This document shows, piece by piece, positions 13,481 to 19,751 of a stretch of 32,753 nucleotides of DNA. The position numbers and the translations under genes were made by a program. Origin of the DNA: Halococcus salifodinae DSM 8989 (GTDB taxonomy: Archaea; Halobacteriota; Halobacteria; Halobacteriales; Halococcaceae); assembly GCF_000336935.1 (NCBI RefSeq), contig NZ_AOME01000079.1:1-32753 (forward strand), read 5' to 3'. Under the pieces are notes generated by a model. That model had not been told where the DNA came from. It saw only the letters and a program-made list of their open reading frames with translations, and made no database searches. The stretch's first letter is position 1. Each line of letters starts with the position of its first letter.

Positions 13481-14563
13481 TCATTCGTCGTCTTCGCCGT
13501 CGGTGTTCGCTGCGGCGCGTTCGTCCAGCCGGATGCCCGTCTTCTTCAGGATGCGCGTCGAGAACAGCGTGTCCCAGTCGTCGTCGCTGACGTCGAAGAA
13601 CGCCGTCATTCGCTCCGTGACCTCAGCAACCCGCCGTTCGCTCTCGGCCTCGGAGCGGCCGTGAGTCATCGCGAAGAAGTTGTACGGCCAGACGCCCTCG
13701 TGGCGCGGGCGCTCGTAGCAGTGGGTGACGAAATCGAGGTCGGCGATCGCTGGCCCGACCTCGCCGACGAGGTCGTCGGGGACGTTCCAGACCGTCATCC
13801 CGTTCTCGGTGTACCCCAACGAGTAGTGGTTCGGGACGACGCCCACGCGCCGGATCTTCCCGCCGCGCTCGAAGCGTGTGATCGTCTCGATCACCCACTC
13901 GACGTCCGCGTCGATCGCTGCGGCGACGTCGCGGTACGGCGTTTCGGTGATCGGCAGCCCACCCTGGAGTTCGACGACGAGATCGCGTTCGGCGGGCGTG
14001 AGCCGGTCGTCGGTCGCGGGATCGACATCGGGCCCGAGATGCGATAGATCGAGGTCGCCGTCGTCCACCGGCCCGTCGAGCAGGAACTTCGCCTCGACCC
14101 GGAACTCCTGCTGCTTCGGGAGATTGTAGGTTTCCTGGCCGGTCTCGGCCTCGATCTCGGCAAGCACCTCGTCGACCCGCTCCGAGTCGGCGACGCTCAC
14201 GACGAACCACATGTTGAGATGGGGATGCTCGCGCTCGTAGTTGTGCGCGACCTCGCGGTGGGCGTTGACCTGCTCGGCAACCTCCTCGAATCGTTCTTCG
14301 GGTGCGTGCATCGCCACGAGGGTCGCCGTGCCGCCGATCGCCTCGGCGTCGATCAGCGCACCGAACCGCGAGAGGGTGCCCTCCTCGTCGAGTCGTTGTA
14401 TCCGATCGAGCAACTCGTCGGCCGAGCAGTCGACGTCACGCTCGCGGAGGGCCGCGGCCGCGGGCTCGAACGGCCGCTCGACCACCGGGAACCCGCCCTG
14501 GAAGGCGTTGAGAATCGCGCGATCGCGACGATCGAGATCGACTGCGACGTCCGCCTCGTTCAT
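13481..14563 (-). CDS. ahbAB: Fused sirohaem decarboxylase AhbA-AhbB
   Basis: Decarboxylates sirohaem to 12,18-didecarboxysirohaem in the alternative haem pathway of archaea. The 360-aa protein has two Lrp/AsnC-like halves that each normally form one subunit. Half 1 (about 10-160) has FQGGFPVVERPF (21-32), HNYEREHPHLNMWFV (107-121). Half 2 (about 188-345) has LQGGLPITETPY and HCYERPRHEGVWPYNFFAM (281-299). Repeated QGG(F/L)P and H-x-YER signatures show a tandem fusion. Sequence resemblance to Lrp regulators is common for this family; the genes next to it (precorrin-2 dehydrogenase, hemA) support the enzymatic role. Confidence 0.9.
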   Translation of the reverse strand: MNEADVAVDLDRRDRAILNAFQGGFPVVERPFEPAAAALRERDVDCSADELLDRIQRLDEEGTLSRFGALIDAEAIGGTATLVAMHAPEERFEEVAEQVNAHREVAHNYEREHPHLNMWFVVSVADSERVDEVLAEIEAETGQETYNLPKQQEFRVEAKFLLDGPVDDGDLDLSHLGPDVDPATDDRLTPAERDLVVELQGGLPITETPYRDVAAAIDADVEWVIETITRFERGGKIRRVGVVPNHYSLGYTENGMTVWNVPDDLVGEVGPAIADLDFVTHCYERPRHEGVWPYNFFAMTHGRSEAESERRVAEVTERMTAFFDVSDDDWDTLFSTRILKKTGIRLDERAAANTDGEDDE

Positions 14564-14656: not shown

Positions 14657-15052
14657 TCAGCCTTCGACGCCAGTCACCGTGTACCCTTCGTCGCGGAGAT
14701 CGTCGAGGATCGCCGCGTGGTCGGCGCTCGCCTCGTAGTAAAACACCACGTCGTGGGTCCCCTCCCGGAGGAGTTGCTGGCACTCCCAGACGAACGCGTC
14801 GCCCTCGATCGTGAGTCCCTGGTGTTGGTTCAGTCCGAACTCGGGGTCGTCGGTGCCCGAGTGGACGTAGGTGTCGCCGGCGTCGGCGTGGCTCGCGATG
14901 GTCTCGCCGATCTCGATCGTGGCCTGGTGGAGCAGGCTCTCCTCGGCGCTCGAAAACTCGGTGTGGACCACGACGCCGTTGAGTTCGATCTCGCCCGGTT
15001 CGAGCAGCGCCGCCGCCCGCCGATAGAGGTCATCGTCGATGGATTCGCTCAT
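14657..15052 (-). CDS. Conserved haloarchaeal protein, DUF5778-like
   Basis: A 131-aa soluble acidic protein, no signal peptide or membrane segment. It starts MSESIDDDLYRRAAALLEPG and contains an ELNGVVVHTEF strand and a DVVFYYEASADHAAILDDL helix-containing end. It resembles the small haloarchaeal family named DUF5778; that name is from memory of the pattern and is not certain. The function is unknown. A TATA-like element sits at leaderless distance, so it is its own unit next to the cold-shock genes. Confidence 0.8.
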   Translation of the reverse strand: MSESIDDDLYRRAAALLEPGEIELNGVVVHTEFSSAEESLLHQATIEIGETIASHADAGDTYVHSGTDDPEFGLNQHQGLTIEGDAFVWECQQLLREGTHDVVFYYEASADHAAILDDLRDEGYTVTGVEG

Positions 15053-15158: not shown

Positions 15159-15353
15159 TTACAGCCGTTCGAGGTTCTCGGCGCGCGGACCCTTGTCCGC
15201 CTGCACGATGTCGAACTCGACCTCCTGGCCCTCTTCGAGATCGGGGCCGCCGATGTCCTCCATGTGGAAGAACACGTCTTCCTCGGAGTCGTCGCTGTCG
15301 ATGAAACCGTACCCGCCCGTGTCGTTGAAGAAGTCTACTGTGCCGTTCGCCAT
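15159..15353 (-). CDS. Cold-shock protein, downstream tandem copy
   Basis: CspA-type single OB-fold nucleic-acid chaperone (64 aa). The RNP motifs are intact: GYGFID (RNP1-like, 14-19) and DVFFHMEDI (RNP2-like, 26-34). The end KGPRAENLERL is the family C-terminus. It follows the upstream copy after 2 bp and differs from it at three residues (N3/T3, D21/E21, G42/D42). Both are most likely on one transcript started before 15550. Confidence 0.95.
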   Translation of the reverse strand: MANGTVDFFNDTGGYGFIDSDDSEEDVFFHMEDIGGPDLEEGQEVEFDIVQADKGPRAENLERL

Positions 15354-15355
15354 GA

Positions 15356-15550
15356 TTACAGCCGTTCGAGGTTTTCCGCGCGCGGACCCTTGTCTGCCTG
15401 CACGATATCGAACTCGACCTCTTGGTCCTCTTCGAGGTCGGGGCCGCCGATATCTTCCATGTGGAAGAAGACGTCCTCCTCGGAGTCCTCGCTGTCGATG
15501 AAGCCGTAACCGCCCGTGTCGTTGAAGAAGTCGACCGTACCTGTCGCCAT
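15356..15550 (-). CDS. Cold-shock protein, upstream tandem copy
   Basis: CspA-type OB-fold protein (64 aa), nearly identical to its downstream neighbour, with the same GYGFID and DVFFH motifs. The ATG at 15550 is chosen over an in-frame upstream ATG because it begins the conserved MATGTVDFFND, matches the start of the second copy, and lies at leaderless distance from the TATA box at 15576-15584. About 20 of 195 bases differ between copies, mostly silent. Confidence 0.95.
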   Translation of the reverse strand: MATGTVDFFNDTGGYGFIDSEDSEEDVFFHMEDIGGPDLEEDQEVEFDIVQADKGPRAENLERL

Positions 15551-15575
15551 TGCACTCGGTCCGAGGCACTGGGGA

Positions 15576-15584
15576 CATAAAAAC
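15576..15584 (-). promoter_or_regulatory. TATA box of the cold-shock gene pair
   Basis: Minus-strand GTTTTTATG, centred about 30 nt before the ATG at 15550. It is a strong archaeal TATA box, consistent with a highly expressed, almost leaderless mRNA. Confidence 0.7.
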
Positions 15585-15672
15585 CTGCGCAAATCCTCGC
15601 CGTCCATGCCACCCTTTCGCGCCCGCATGTCGTGGCATAAGACTCATTTCACCCGCGCGAGTGCGAAGCATA

Positions 15673-16596
15673 ATGCCTTCCAGTGCGCGTCGCTTGCTCG
15701 ATCGGACGTACGAACGTCTGCTCGAACGCGAGGTCGACGGCGCGCCCTCCCACGTCGCCGTGATCCAGGACGGCAACCGACGGTACGCCGACGAGCGTGG
15801 CAAGGACGCCTCCGATGGCCACCGTGCGGGGGCGGAAACCACCGAACAGGTCCTCGATTGGTGTGCCGATGTCGGCGTCGAGGAGCTCACCCTCTACACC
15901 TTCTCGACCGAGAACTTCGATCGCCCGCCTGAGGAGAACGAACGCCTCTTCGCACTGCTCGACGAGAAGCTCCGGGAGTTCGCCGAAGCCGAGCGCGTCC
16001 ACGATCGGGAAGTCTCGATTCGTGCCATCGGCGAGACCGATCAACTGCCCGAGCACCTCCGCGACGCCGTCGAGTACGCCGAAACCCGCACCAGCGGCTA
16101 CGATCAGCTCCGCCTCAACATCGCGCTCGCCTATGGAGGCCGCGCCGAACTCCTCGGCGCGGCCCGTGACGCCGCTCGCGCGGTCGAGGAAGGCGATCTC
16201 GCGCCACACGAGATCGGCGCCGACGAGATCGATCGTCGGCTCTACGAGGGGCCGACGCGCGACGTCGACCTCATCATCCGTACTGGTGGTGACGAGCGCA
16301 CCTCGAACTTCCTGCCGTGGCACGCCAACGGCAACGAAGCAGCGGTCTTTTTCTGCACGCCCTACTGGCCGGCGTTCGCGAAAAAGGACTTCCTGCGGGC
16401 GATCCGGACCTACGAGTCCCGCGAGGAATCGTGGCGGCGCACCCGTGCGCGGCGCGCGCTCGCGCTGGTGCGGGCGGTCGGCAGTGCGGAGCTCGACGAG
16501 GCGAGCGCCATCGTCGATCGGTTCCGCGAGTATCTCCCGCGTCGCGAACTCGAACGGGTCGACCGCGACGAGGGCGAGTCGGCGACCGCCGACTGA
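15673..16596 (+). CDS. uppS: cis-Prenyltransferase (undecaprenyl/dolichyl diphosphate synthase), catalytic
   Basis: Extends an allylic diphosphate with IPP in cis to make the polyprenyl carrier for glycosylation. 307 aa from the ATG at 15673 (MPSSARRLLDRTYERLLERE); the frame is open upstream but that part overlaps the cold-shock promoter. Motifs: HVAVIQDGNRRYADERG with catalytic D33, LTLYTFSTENFDRP (72-85), DLIIRTGGDERTSNFLPW (199-216), YWPAFAKKDFLRAI. At the C-terminus the R-x-G motif (RRFGG in E. coli UppS) is absent; the matching stretch reads SREESWRRT, followed by about 50 extra residues. That combination resembles the catalytic subunit of heteromeric enzymes. Confidence 0.93.
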   Translation: MPSSARRLLDRTYERLLEREVDGAPSHVAVIQDGNRRYADERGKDASDGHRAGAETTEQVLDWCADVGVEELTLYTFSTENFDRPPEENERLFALLDEKLREFAEAERVHDREVSIRAIGETDQLPEHLRDAVEYAETRTSGYDQLRLNIALAYGGRAELLGAARDAARAVEEGDLAPHEIGADEIDRRLYEGPTRDVDLIIRTGGDERTSNFLPWHANGNEAAVFFCTPYWPAFAKKDFLRAIRTYESREESWRRTRARRALALVRAVGSAELDEASAIVDRFREYLPRRELERVDRDEGESATAD

Positions 16597-16620
16597 CTGG
16601 CGACGCACTGCGGGCGTTCA

Positions 16621-17016
16621 TCACGTCGCACGACGCTCGACGGTCAACAGCGTCGCGGCAAGCACCGACAAAACCGCGAACGGGACGATTGCGTTGCCGA
16701 TGCTGAACAGCGAGAGCACCGAAAGCATCGACGCTGCCACCGCGAGTCCCCAGACGCGCCACACGCGTTCGGTCCACGCCCAGTACCCAACGCCGAGCGA
16801 GAGCGCGGCGACGACGACCGACCAAAAGAGGATTATCGGTGCGTTCTCGGCGGCGAGCGTTGTGCCGTCTACGAACAGATATGGAATCGCGGACGTGACG
16901 AGCAGATAGCCAGCACCGAACAGTCCGGCGAGGGCCGCGAGCACGCCGACGCTCCTCCCGACGAGATTGAGGCGGGACCCGTCCGCCCGGTCGCGGTCGG
17001 TCGTGACGTTCACCAC
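16621..17016 (-). CDS. Hypothetical four-helix membrane protein
   Basis: 131 aa, not recognised as a named family. After a polar N-terminus (MVNVTTDRDRADGSRLNLVG) it has four hydrophobic segments at about 22-42, 58-80, 86-102 and 105-125, so it is probably an integral membrane protein. It lies antisense-oriented between the two cis-prenyltransferase genes and ends 24 bp from the uppS stop (convergent). No function can be proposed. Confidence 0.7.
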   Translation of the reverse strand: MVNVTTDRDRADGSRLNLVGRSVGVLAALAGLFGAGYLLVTSAIPYLFVDGTTLAAENAPIILFWSVVVAALSLGVGYWAWTERVWRVWGLAVAASMLSVLSLFSIGNAIVPFAVLSVLAATLLTVERRAT

Positions 17017-17113
17017 AGCCGACTGTTCGTTTCAACGGCACATAGTTCTTGTCGAGCCATGAAATCCGCTCGCCTTCCGGCCCTGGAGACATCACGGCGG
17101 CCGCTCTCCGGCC

Positions 17114-17722
17114 TCACTTTCCGTACCGGCGCTGTCGGTTCTGATAGTCCCGAAGCGCCCGCAGATAGTCGCGCTTCCGGAAGTCCCGCCAGTTCACGTC
17201 GGTGAAGTGGAGCTCCGAATACACCGACTGCCAGATCATGAAATCCGAGAGGCGCTCCGCGCCGGTCTTGATCACGAGGTCGGGATCGGTCGGAAAGACC
17301 AGCCGCTCCTCGATCGCGTCGCCGTCGACGTCGTCGGGCGCGAGCGTCCCGGCCTCGACCTGGGTTGCGACCCCGCGGACCGCCGCCGCGAACTCGTGTT
17401 TGCCACCGAGACCGATGCTGACCTGAATGGGGGCGTCGGCGCGCTCGGCGTCGTCGGGGCCCCGAACCGCGAGCTCGCGCGGCGCGTCACACCGCTCGAA
17501 GACCTGCCGGATGGCGGGCACGGCACCGGTGTCGAGCACGCTGACGTACACCATCACGCGGTCGGCCCCGTACTCGAACGCCCACGCGAAACAGTCCTCG
17601 AGGGTGCGGTAGGCACCGTCCTCCAGGAGGTCGCGCTCGGCGATAACCACCGCGATCCGCTCGGGCAGCGTGGCCGGGTTCCGGCGGACCCGGGCGGCGA
17701 GATACCTGTCGTAAAGTCCCAC
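17114..17722 (-). CDS. cis-Prenyltransferase homologue lacking the catalytic Asp
   Basis: 202-aa UppS-family protein. The C-terminal half is well conserved: DPDLVIKTGAERLSDFMIW (147-165), YSELHFTDVNWRDFRKRDYL (168-187) and a C-terminal RQRRYGK carrying the R-x-G motif (199-201). The N-terminal DGNRR motif is gone: RIAVVIAERDL aligns with HVAVIQDGNRR, placing A28 where the catalytic Asp should be. The frame is intact, so it is unlikely to be a pseudogene. It may be the non-catalytic partner of the uppS product, as NgBR/Nus1 is for DHDDS, or a divergent enzyme. Start is GTG at 17722, supported by a TATA box 28 nt upstream. Confidence 0.88.
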   Translation of the reverse strand: MGLYDRYLAARVRRNPATLPERIAVVIAERDLLEDGAYRTLEDCFAWAFEYGADRVMVYVSVLDTGAVPAIRQVFERCDAPRELAVRGPDDAERADAPIQVSIGLGGKHEFAAAVRGVATQVEAGTLAPDDVDGDAIEERLVFPTDPDLVIKTGAERLSDFMIWQSVYSELHFTDVNWRDFRKRDYLRALRDYQNRQRRYGK

Positions 17723-17743
17723 ACCCCGACTACTCGCGGGGTG
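17722..17743. promoter_or_regulatory. Inverted repeat over the start of the second cis-prenyltransferase gene
   Basis: CACCCCG (17722-17728) and CGGGGTG (17737-17743) form a perfect 7-bp inverted repeat with an 8-nt spacer, between the TATA box and the GTG codon. It could be an operator or an mRNA hairpin at the very 5' end. Confidence 0.4.
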
Positions 17744-17745
17744 CG

Positions 17746-17755
17746 CCTAAAACTC
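17746..17755 (-). promoter_or_regulatory. TATA box of the second cis-prenyltransferase gene
   Basis: Minus-strand GAGTTTTAGG, centred 28 nt before the GTG at 17722; leaderless spacing. Confidence 0.6.
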
Positions 17756-17818
17756 ACGGCTCGTCCCGGCGAAATCGGCGATTCGCCGCGTCACACCTGT
17801 CGGTTCCGGGCTTCGGGA

Positions 17819-17828
17819 GTGTTAAGTG
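17819..17828 (+). promoter_or_regulatory. TATA box of the DUF92 gene
   Basis: GTGTTAAGTG, centred about 28 nt before the GTG start at 17851. The same GTTAAGTG octamer stands at the same distance before pdxS. Confidence 0.55.
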
Positions 17829-17850
17829 GCCATCGGCGAAACGACGGGCA

Positions 17851-19236
17851 GTGACATCCACCGTCCGGCGGGCGGGCGCGTTCGCACTCGTCGGCGCGCT
17901 CTCGCTCGCCGCGCCCTTCCTCGGGCCCGCGATCGCGGCCCCGTTCGTGCTGATCGCCGGCCTCGCGGCCTTCGTGATCGACGACGGGCCGGTGTTCGAG
18001 CTGTTCGCCCGCTCGGGCGATCGCCAGGAACGCACCCTCTACGGGCTCGCGGGCTTCGCACTCGCGATCGCGGGGCTCGCGCTGTTCGCCTCGGTGTTCG
18101 AAATGCCGACGTTCGTGTTCGTGGCGAGCGTCCTCGTCCTCTCGGGTGGCACCCTCGCCGAGGCGGTGGCCCAGGAGTGGCGGGGCACACCGATCGCGGG
18201 CGTCGTCGGGTTCGTGGTCGGCGGAACTCTCACAGGCGCGGCGGGCCAGCTTGCTGTCGGACTCGCGGCTCCTGCGCCCCTGCCCGCGCTCGCGGTCTTT
18301 TACGCTGCCAGCGGGGCGTTGCTCGGCGCGCTGGTGCGCTCGGTGCTGTTCGAGCGCGACGATCCCCTCGTCCTGTTCTCGATGGGACTCCTGCTCTGGC
18401 TACTGGCCGCCCTCGAACCGTCGGTCCCCGCCACCGGAATCGGTCTCGCGCTCGCGGTCACCGCCGGGTTCGGCTATCTCGCGTACGCGCTCGACACCGC
18501 CTCGATCCCGGGGATGGTGACGGGCGTGCTCTCCGGCCTCCTGATGATCGTGCTCGGCGGGTTCGGCTGGTTCGCCCTCCTCATCGCCTTCTTCGCGGGC
18601 GGCGGGCTCGCCACCAAGTTCCGCTACGACCGGAAACGACAGCGCGGCATCGCCGAGGACGACGGCGGCGCACGCGGCAGCGGGAACGTGCTCGCGAACG
18701 CCGCGGTCGCGCTGGCTGCGGTGCTCGGCTACGCCGCGGCCCCGCTGCACCCCGTCGGCGGCGAACTGTTCCGGTTCGTCTTCGCGGGATCGATCGCCGC
18801 CGCGATGGCCGACACGCTGTCGAGCGAGATCGGCGGTCTCTACGATACCCCCAGGCTCATCACGACGCTCGAACCCGTCCCTCCCGGCACCGATGGCGGC
18901 GTGACGTGGCAGGGTGTGGTCGCCGGACTCGGTGGCGCGGCGCTGGTCGCCGGGCTCGCTGCCCTCGTCTTCGACGTGACACCTGCGGGCGCGGCGATCA
19001 TCGCTGCGGCGGGCGTCGCGGGGATGATCGTCGACAGCCTCCTCGGGGCGCTGTTCGAGAACCAGCGCTTCGACAGTCTGCTCCCGGGTACGAGCGGCGT
19101 TCCCGGAGCCGAGCCCGGCGGCGGCTCGCTCGGGAGTCTGGAGTTCGACAACCGGACCGTGAACTTTCTCGCGACGCTCGCGGCCGCGATGATCTGTGCC
19201 GCGCTCGCCGTGAGCATCGGCCTCGCTCCGGGATGA
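17851..19236 (+). CDS. DUF92 family membrane protein (polyprenyl-phosphate kinase-like)
   Basis: A polytopic membrane protein (461 aa) of the DUF92/COG1836 family, whose plant member VTE6 is a phytyl-phosphate kinase; the archaeal substrate is not known from this sequence. Many hydrophobic helices run from residue 8 on. The C-terminal half carries the family signature: GGGLATKFRYDRKRQRGIAE (about 251-270), the GSIAAAMADTLSSEIGGLYD segment and DNRTVNFLATLAAAMICAAL. Start is GTG at 17851 (TSTVRRAGAF), chosen from the TATA spacing. It lies beside two cis-prenyltransferase homologues, suggesting a role in isoprenoid-lipid metabolism. Its stop overlaps the next start (ATGA). Confidence 0.9.
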   Translation: MTSTVRRAGAFALVGALSLAAPFLGPAIAAPFVLIAGLAAFVIDDGPVFELFARSGDRQERTLYGLAGFALAIAGLALFASVFEMPTFVFVASVLVLSGGTLAEAVAQEWRGTPIAGVVGFVVGGTLTGAAGQLAVGLAAPAPLPALAVFYAASGALLGALVRSVLFERDDPLVLFSMGLLLWLLAALEPSVPATGIGLALAVTAGFGYLAYALDTASIPGMVTGVLSGLLMIVLGGFGWFALLIAFFAGGGLATKFRYDRKRQRGIAEDDGGARGSGNVLANAAVALAAVLGYAAAPLHPVGGELFRFVFAGSIAAAMADTLSSEIGGLYDTPRLITTLEPVPPGTDGGVTWQGVVAGLGGAALVAGLAALVFDVTPAGAAIIAAAGVAGMIVDSLLGALFENQRFDSLLPGTSGVPGAEPGGGSLGSLEFDNRTVNFLATLAAAMICAALAVSIGLAPG

Positions 19237-19751
19237 TCGAAATCCGCGAGGCGACCCGCGACGATCTCACGACGCTGCTCGCCATTCAGTCGGTGTCGCT
19301 CGACTCGACGTGGCCCGATCTCCTGCATGCGGGAATCGACGGCCCACCGTTGGTGCTGGTTGCCGGACAGCCGCCGGTGGGCTACGCGCTCGCGATCACG
19401 GGCGATCCAGCCTACCTCGCCGAACTCGCGGTCGCGCCCGATCACCGAGGAACGGGCCACGGCTCGGCGCTTCTCGGTGCACTCGTCGACCGCGTGGGTG
19501 GAAGCGAACTCCGACTCACGACCCGTGCGGATGCGAGGCGTGCGAAACGGTTCTACGAGCGCCACGGCTTCACGGTCGCCGAGCGGTTGCCGGGCCACTA
19601 CGACGGCGACGACGGCCTCCTGCTCGTCCGTCAGTCCGAGGCCGATCTGCCGGACGGCGACGACGGCCTCCTGCTCGTCCGTCAGTCCGAGGCCGATCTG
19701 CCGGACGGCGACGACGAATCGGCCTCCCCGTCGGATTCGGGCCGGAGCTGA
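19233..19751 (+). CDS. GNAT acetyltransferase with duplicated C-terminal segment
   Basis: N-acetyltransferase of unknown substrate (172 aa). The acetyl-CoA loop is APDHRGTGHGSALL (68-81), and motif B is KRFYERHGFTVAERLPGHY (105-123). The last conserved strand DGLLLVR is present twice because a 17-residue unit (DGDDGLLLVRQSEADLP) is repeated perfectly. A normal protein would end after the first unit plus a short tail. It is translationally coupled to DUF92 (ATGA) and converges with dnaG, overlapping its 3' end by 70 bp. Confidence 0.9.
   Translation: MIEIREATRDDLTTLLAIQSVSLDSTWPDLLHAGIDGPPLVLVAGQPPVGYALAITGDPAYLAELAVAPDHRGTGHGSALLGALVDRVGGSELRLTTRADARRAKRFYERHGFTVAERLPGHYDGDDGLLLVRQSEADLPDGDDGLLLVRQSEADLPDGDDESASPSDSGRS
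19602..19716. repeat. Perfect 51-bp tandem duplication in the GNAT gene
   Basis: Two identical in-frame 51-bp units (19602-19652 and 19653-19703) followed by 13 bases of a third. The unit starts GACGGCGACGACGGCC. Absence of any difference means a recent duplication. The stop codon of the convergent dnaG lies inside the second unit. Confidence 0.95.

Follow-up and report, generated by a model that had tools for sequence, protein, structure and literature searches.

The window analysed here, a 32,753-nucleotide stretch of the Halococcus salifodinae DSM 8989 genome (contig NZ_AOME01000079.1), contains two genes of the cis-prenyltransferase family PF01255, hereafter A and B, together with a gene for a DUF92 membrane protein (Table 1). 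The PF01255 profile matched A over positions 1-216 of 219 (E = 1.4e-67) and B over positions 115-219 of 219 (E = 4e-25), and these were the only two matches in a search of the whole 4.2-Mb genome. A and B are convergently oriented, with a 131-aa ORF between them, and B and the DUF92 gene are divergent. Judging from the gene coordinates and the conserved divergent order, the promoters of both B and the DUF92 gene presumably sit in the 128 bp that separate them. An earlier sequence-only reading of this DNA had the DUF92 gene following the pair, which is correct for its adjacency to B but not for a shared operon, as the two genes diverge.

Table 1 Features in and around the cis-prenyltransferase locus (positions are those of the window)
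Feature	Position	Strand	Remarks
Fused siroheme-decarboxylase-like protein	13481..14563	-	
DUF5778 protein	14657..15052	-	
Cold-shock (CspA-like) ORFs	15159..15628	-	two, in tandem
A, putative catalytic subunit, cis-prenyltransferase homologue	15673..16596	+	307 aa
A/B intervening ORF, predicted membrane protein	16621..17016	-	131 aa
B, putative non-catalytic subunit, cis-prenyltransferase homologue	17114..17722	-	202 aa, GTG start
Intergenic region, B / DUF92	17723..17850		128 bp
Integral membrane protein of family DUF92 (PF01940), candidate third component, gene divergent from B	17851..19236	+	
GNAT acetyltransferase	about 19233..19751	+	

The 131-aa ORF had a clear match in only one same-genus genome among the loci searched and, being barely conserved, was rejected as a part of the module. 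Beyond the pair, the two cold-shock ORFs are nearly identical and divergent from gene A, the siroheme-decarboxylase-like protein combines duplicated NirDL-like HTH and AsnC-type ligand-binding domains, and the GNAT acetyltransferase gene abuts the end of the DUF92 gene and encodes a protein in which a segment (DGDDGLLLVRQSEADLP) is repeated close to the C-terminus.

The two proteins divide between them the motifs that homodimeric undecaprenyl diphosphate synthases (UppS) carry on one chain. In A, the catalytic aspartate lies within DGNRR (residues 33-37) and R-x-G is absent from the site where homodimeric enzymes have it; in B, Ala28 occupies the catalytic aspartate column and the chain ends in QRRYGK, which contains R-x-G. 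This complementary loss, already described for both proteins in the sequence-only reading, was confirmed on the sequence: neither chain unites aspartate and RxG, one PF01255 protein having DGNxR without RxG and the other RxG without DGN. The split is not a product of chance, as it recurs in every Halobacteria protein compared: Asp33 is found in 51/51 A proteins and RxG at the canonical site in 0/51, while all 50 B proteins have Thr, Ala or Ser in the aspartate column, lack DGN and end in RxG followed by exactly one residue. In a joint alignment, with residues in UppS numbering, B lacks equivalents of the allylic (S1) site residues (DGNxR, His43, Asn74 and Arg77), and B proteins of Halobacteria retain equivalents of Arg200, Ser202 and Glu213 in addition to RxG. 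A has kept the residues of both the allylic (S1) and the isopentenyl diphosphate (IPP, S2) sites.

Overall, PF01255 was present in 391/391 Halobacteria genomes, with exactly two copies in 377, three or four in 13 and a single copy in one. Among the 74 genomes listed in full, in which PF01255 matches ended at 215-217 of 219 for A and at 219 for all B, we found 70 with A and B, three with two copies of A plus B and one with B only. On the question raised by the sequence-only reading, whether the two genes always occur together, the answer is thus that 73/74 genomes have both; the B-only genome is a draft of about 120 contigs in which an A-profile search found no A, and there was no A-only genome among the 74. 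The genes are convergent and within 4 kb of each other in 53/74 genomes; in 20 of the 73 that have both, the distance exceeds 4 kb or the two are on separate contigs. Extra A-type copies occur in two Halobacteria genomes (G061 and G068; loci L091 and L092), and a third genome (G002) has a very divergent extra copy (L090).

The pair is not confined to haloarchaea, and its range is thus wider than that of the haloarchaeal module suggested in the sequence-only reading. Both types were found in 29 of the 31 genomes from other Halobacteriota families, and relatives of B occur throughout the phylum. Outside Halobacteria, DGNRR was found in 29/29 A proteins, DGN was absent from 30/30 B proteins and a terminal RxG was found in 29/30 B proteins; two of the 29 A copies (L208 and L212) have a terminal RxG-like tripeptide near the usual place. 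The convergent A-B order also recurs in several of these families, and a Methanoperedens contig (L123) has A, B and DUF92 in the same order. In a tree of 108 proteins, A and B each formed one clade (support 99/96 and 100/100, respectively); the B branch is long and, for that reason, its point of branching was not placed. Together, these results indicate that the A/B module is phylum-wide and has its origin close to the phylum's base. Both motifs are on one chain in archaea with a single gene (Thermoplasmata, Methanomassiliicoccales and Methanosphaera relatives), and since these homodimeric relatives end as B does, the RxG tail is an ancestral feature that B has retained. The two other-family genomes with neither type belong to one genus (G397 and G405, family f18), and their lack of a detectable cis-prenyltransferase could represent real loss, replacement or draft gaps; A-profile searches of these two and of the B-only drafts G072 and G514 revealed no A.

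Heteromeric enzymes of this kind have been reported in Methanosarcina, as the sequence-only reading noted: MM_0618/MM_1083 of M. mazei form a heteromeric cis-prenyltransferase with C45-50 products, probably for a glycosyl carrier lipid, while MM_0014 lacks RxG and is nevertheless an active homodimer (PMC8131916). One genome in our set (G500) has three PF01255 genes, of which one is the MM_0014 orthologue (E = 4e-131), identifying the genome as Methanosarcina, and an A and a B make up the rest. By elimination, MM_0618/MM_1083 are the A/B pair, and the haloarchaeal genes, judged by the tree and by this assignment, are their orthologues. The two systems share the phylum and the two subunit types but differ in gene spacing, the genes being usually neighbours in Halobacteria and far apart in the Methanosarcina genome.

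Taken together, the profile matches and model folds, the motif split, residue conservation, co-occurrence, linkage and Methanosarcina orthology make it very probable that A and B together constitute a heteromeric cis-prenyltransferase, each as one subunit, whose polyprenyl diphosphate product is the precursor of dolichol phosphate, the carrier of glycans. The suggestion of a possible heteromeric enzyme thereby gains support at the sequence level, above all from near-perfect co-occurrence and from orthology to the reported heteromer. In such an enzyme, A would bind the allylic primer and IPP and carry out the chemistry (Asp33, Asn81, Arg84, Arg203, Arg209 and Ser211), and B, having lost the allylic site but retained the C-terminal half of the fold, would reach over the dimer interface with its tail (Arg199-x-Gly-x-COOH) and in this way complete the active site in the tail-less A. 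A precedent exists in the human complex, where the C-terminal end of NgBR (R290-L-G-K293) spans the interface and contacts DHDDS N82, R85 and R37 as well as phosphate, and where the NgBR mutation R290H lowers activity (PMC7573591). The corresponding residues of A (N81, R84 and R36, based on near-gapless alignment offsets) are invariant, and the B chain terminates at the matching position, so that a tail arrangement like the human one is likely. From the evidence as a whole we infer physical contact between A and B, activity of the two only when joined, the product length and a role in the dolichol pathway. The product of the putative haloarchaeal enzyme may differ in length from that of MM_0618/MM_1083: a C55-C60 chain would be in keeping with the dolichol phosphates known from archaea, while human DHDDS/NgBR makes C85-100.

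The C-terminus of A may also be relevant. The helical C-terminal extension of DHDDS has been argued to be incompatible with an efficient homodimer (PMC7573591), and A has an extension of about 55 aa with predicted helices at 237-272 and 274-287 (model pLDDT 75, medium confidence), which may be comparable and may bear on homodimer formation in the same way. In a comparison with the PDB, the A model matched human DHDDS best, over about 300 columns at an rmsd above 10. The extension is missing from several other Halobacteriota A proteins. A search of the PDB with the C-terminal fragment of A alone matched only the known cis-prenyltransferase core.

Loss of RxG does not by itself establish a heteromer, MM_0014 being a homodimer without the motif; what carries the case is the pair and its orthology. 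MM_0014, like MA1831, resembles A in having the catalytic aspartate and no RxG, and this active homodimer (PMC8131916), along with the incomplete conservation of A/B adjacency, would favour A as a self-sufficient homodimer and B as a separate regulatory or moonlighting protein. We consider this very unlikely: proteins of the MM_0014 type, which make shorter products, form a separate long branch of the tree with A outside it, A and B co-occur almost without exception, B retains both the RxG tail and residues of the C-terminal half, and the Methanosarcina orthologues of the pair are reported as a heteromer (PMC8131916). A alone might still have some activity, given the MM_0014 homodimer and the weak activity that remains in DHDDS homodimers (PMC7573591). 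It is extremely improbable that B is a functionless, decaying paralogue, as its lost catalytic site and faster evolution (long branches) might suggest; all 74 Halobacteria genomes have retained B, as has the phylum at large, and 44 positions, tail included, are invariant in 37 B sequences, and we dropped this reading because B is universally kept. Counting against the heteromer itself are the convergent orientation of A and B, which would preclude co-transcription, their wider separation in 20 of the 73 genomes, the medium confidence of the A model and the RxG-like ends of the A copies in L208 and L212.

The comparison with human DHDDS/NgBR and yeast Rer2/Nus1 in the sequence-only reading was accurate for the division of motifs, with the catalytic aspartate on one chain and the C-terminal RxG tail on the other, although in Nus1 the Arg of RxG is replaced by Asn. 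A is also predicted to have a helical C-terminal extension, which may correspond to that of DHDDS. B lacks the N-terminal membrane anchor of NgBR, its fold starting directly with no hydrophobic N-terminal segment. With homodimeric UppS of bacteria, Thermoplasmata and Methanosphaera relatives, A shares the fold and active-site residues and B the C-terminal half; the difference is that UppS has both motifs on one chain. A common origin, in which eukaryotes inherited the split enzyme from archaea, would be compatible with a heteromer of A and B and differs from our reading only on origin. Full-length profiles are suggestive of it: the A profile aligned with DHDDS over 3-297, C-terminal extension included, and the alignment of the B profile with NUS1 began at residue 15, while UppS matches begin near 76-100. 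When searched alone, however, neither the N-terminal portion of B (half the protein) nor the extension of A matched NUS1 or DHDDS, so that no kinship was detected in the diagnostic halves. Moreover, bacterial UppS outscored the eukaryotic counterpart in comparisons with B and scored about the same in those with A, and several Halobacteriota A proteins have no extension. We therefore regard common descent as unlikely; the likeness seems to be functional, and a parallel origin appears the better reading of these comparisons, whose statistical power is low.

Heteromeric cis-prenyltransferases were known from eukaryotes and one archaeon, and the present pair is a haloarchaeal, phylum-wide extension of the archaeal kind. 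A search of mostly open-access literature revealed no paper on the haloarchaeal pair or on archaeal DUF92. Practically every haloarchaeon has two apparently redundant undecaprenyl-synthase-like genes, which should be explained as one enzyme. With the split dated to near the base of an archaeal phylum, the division of labour seen in DHDDS/NgBR, a human disease enzyme, seems to have evolved in parallel in archaea.

The DUF92 gene is strongly linked to B: the two are divergent and within 3 kb of each other in 60/74 Halobacteria genomes and divergent in 14/28 B regions outside Halobacteria, even where A lies elsewhere, and DUF92 is single copy in 74/74 Halobacteria. The protein scored 204.8 bits against PF01940 (gathering score, 27.5) and 139.5 bits against TIGR00297, below the NCBIfam cut-off of 205.85; searches of solved structures and other Pfam families gave nothing credible except PF01940. 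The plant protein VTE6 is a member of the DUF92 family. VTE6 has been named a phytyl-phosphate kinase (PMC10849223), and the steps that come after the prenyltransferase in the archaeal dolichol-phosphate pathway have been called uncharacterized (PMC5088576). With its conserved divergent position beside B, DUF92 is a good, testable candidate for a missing dolichol-phosphate step or for a membrane dock. More specifically, but only tentatively, DUF92 could be a third component that acts as a prenyl or polyprenyl phosphate kinase, as VTE6 would suggest, and may also dock the soluble A/B complex in place of the NgBR anchor. The dolichol-phosphate module of A, B and DUF92 put forward in the sequence-only reading is borne out for gene linkage, with a biochemical role for DUF92 that is hypothetical. 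One Halobacteria genome (G029; L081 and L082) has a rearranged module in which DUF92 lies near A and B is about 30 kb away.
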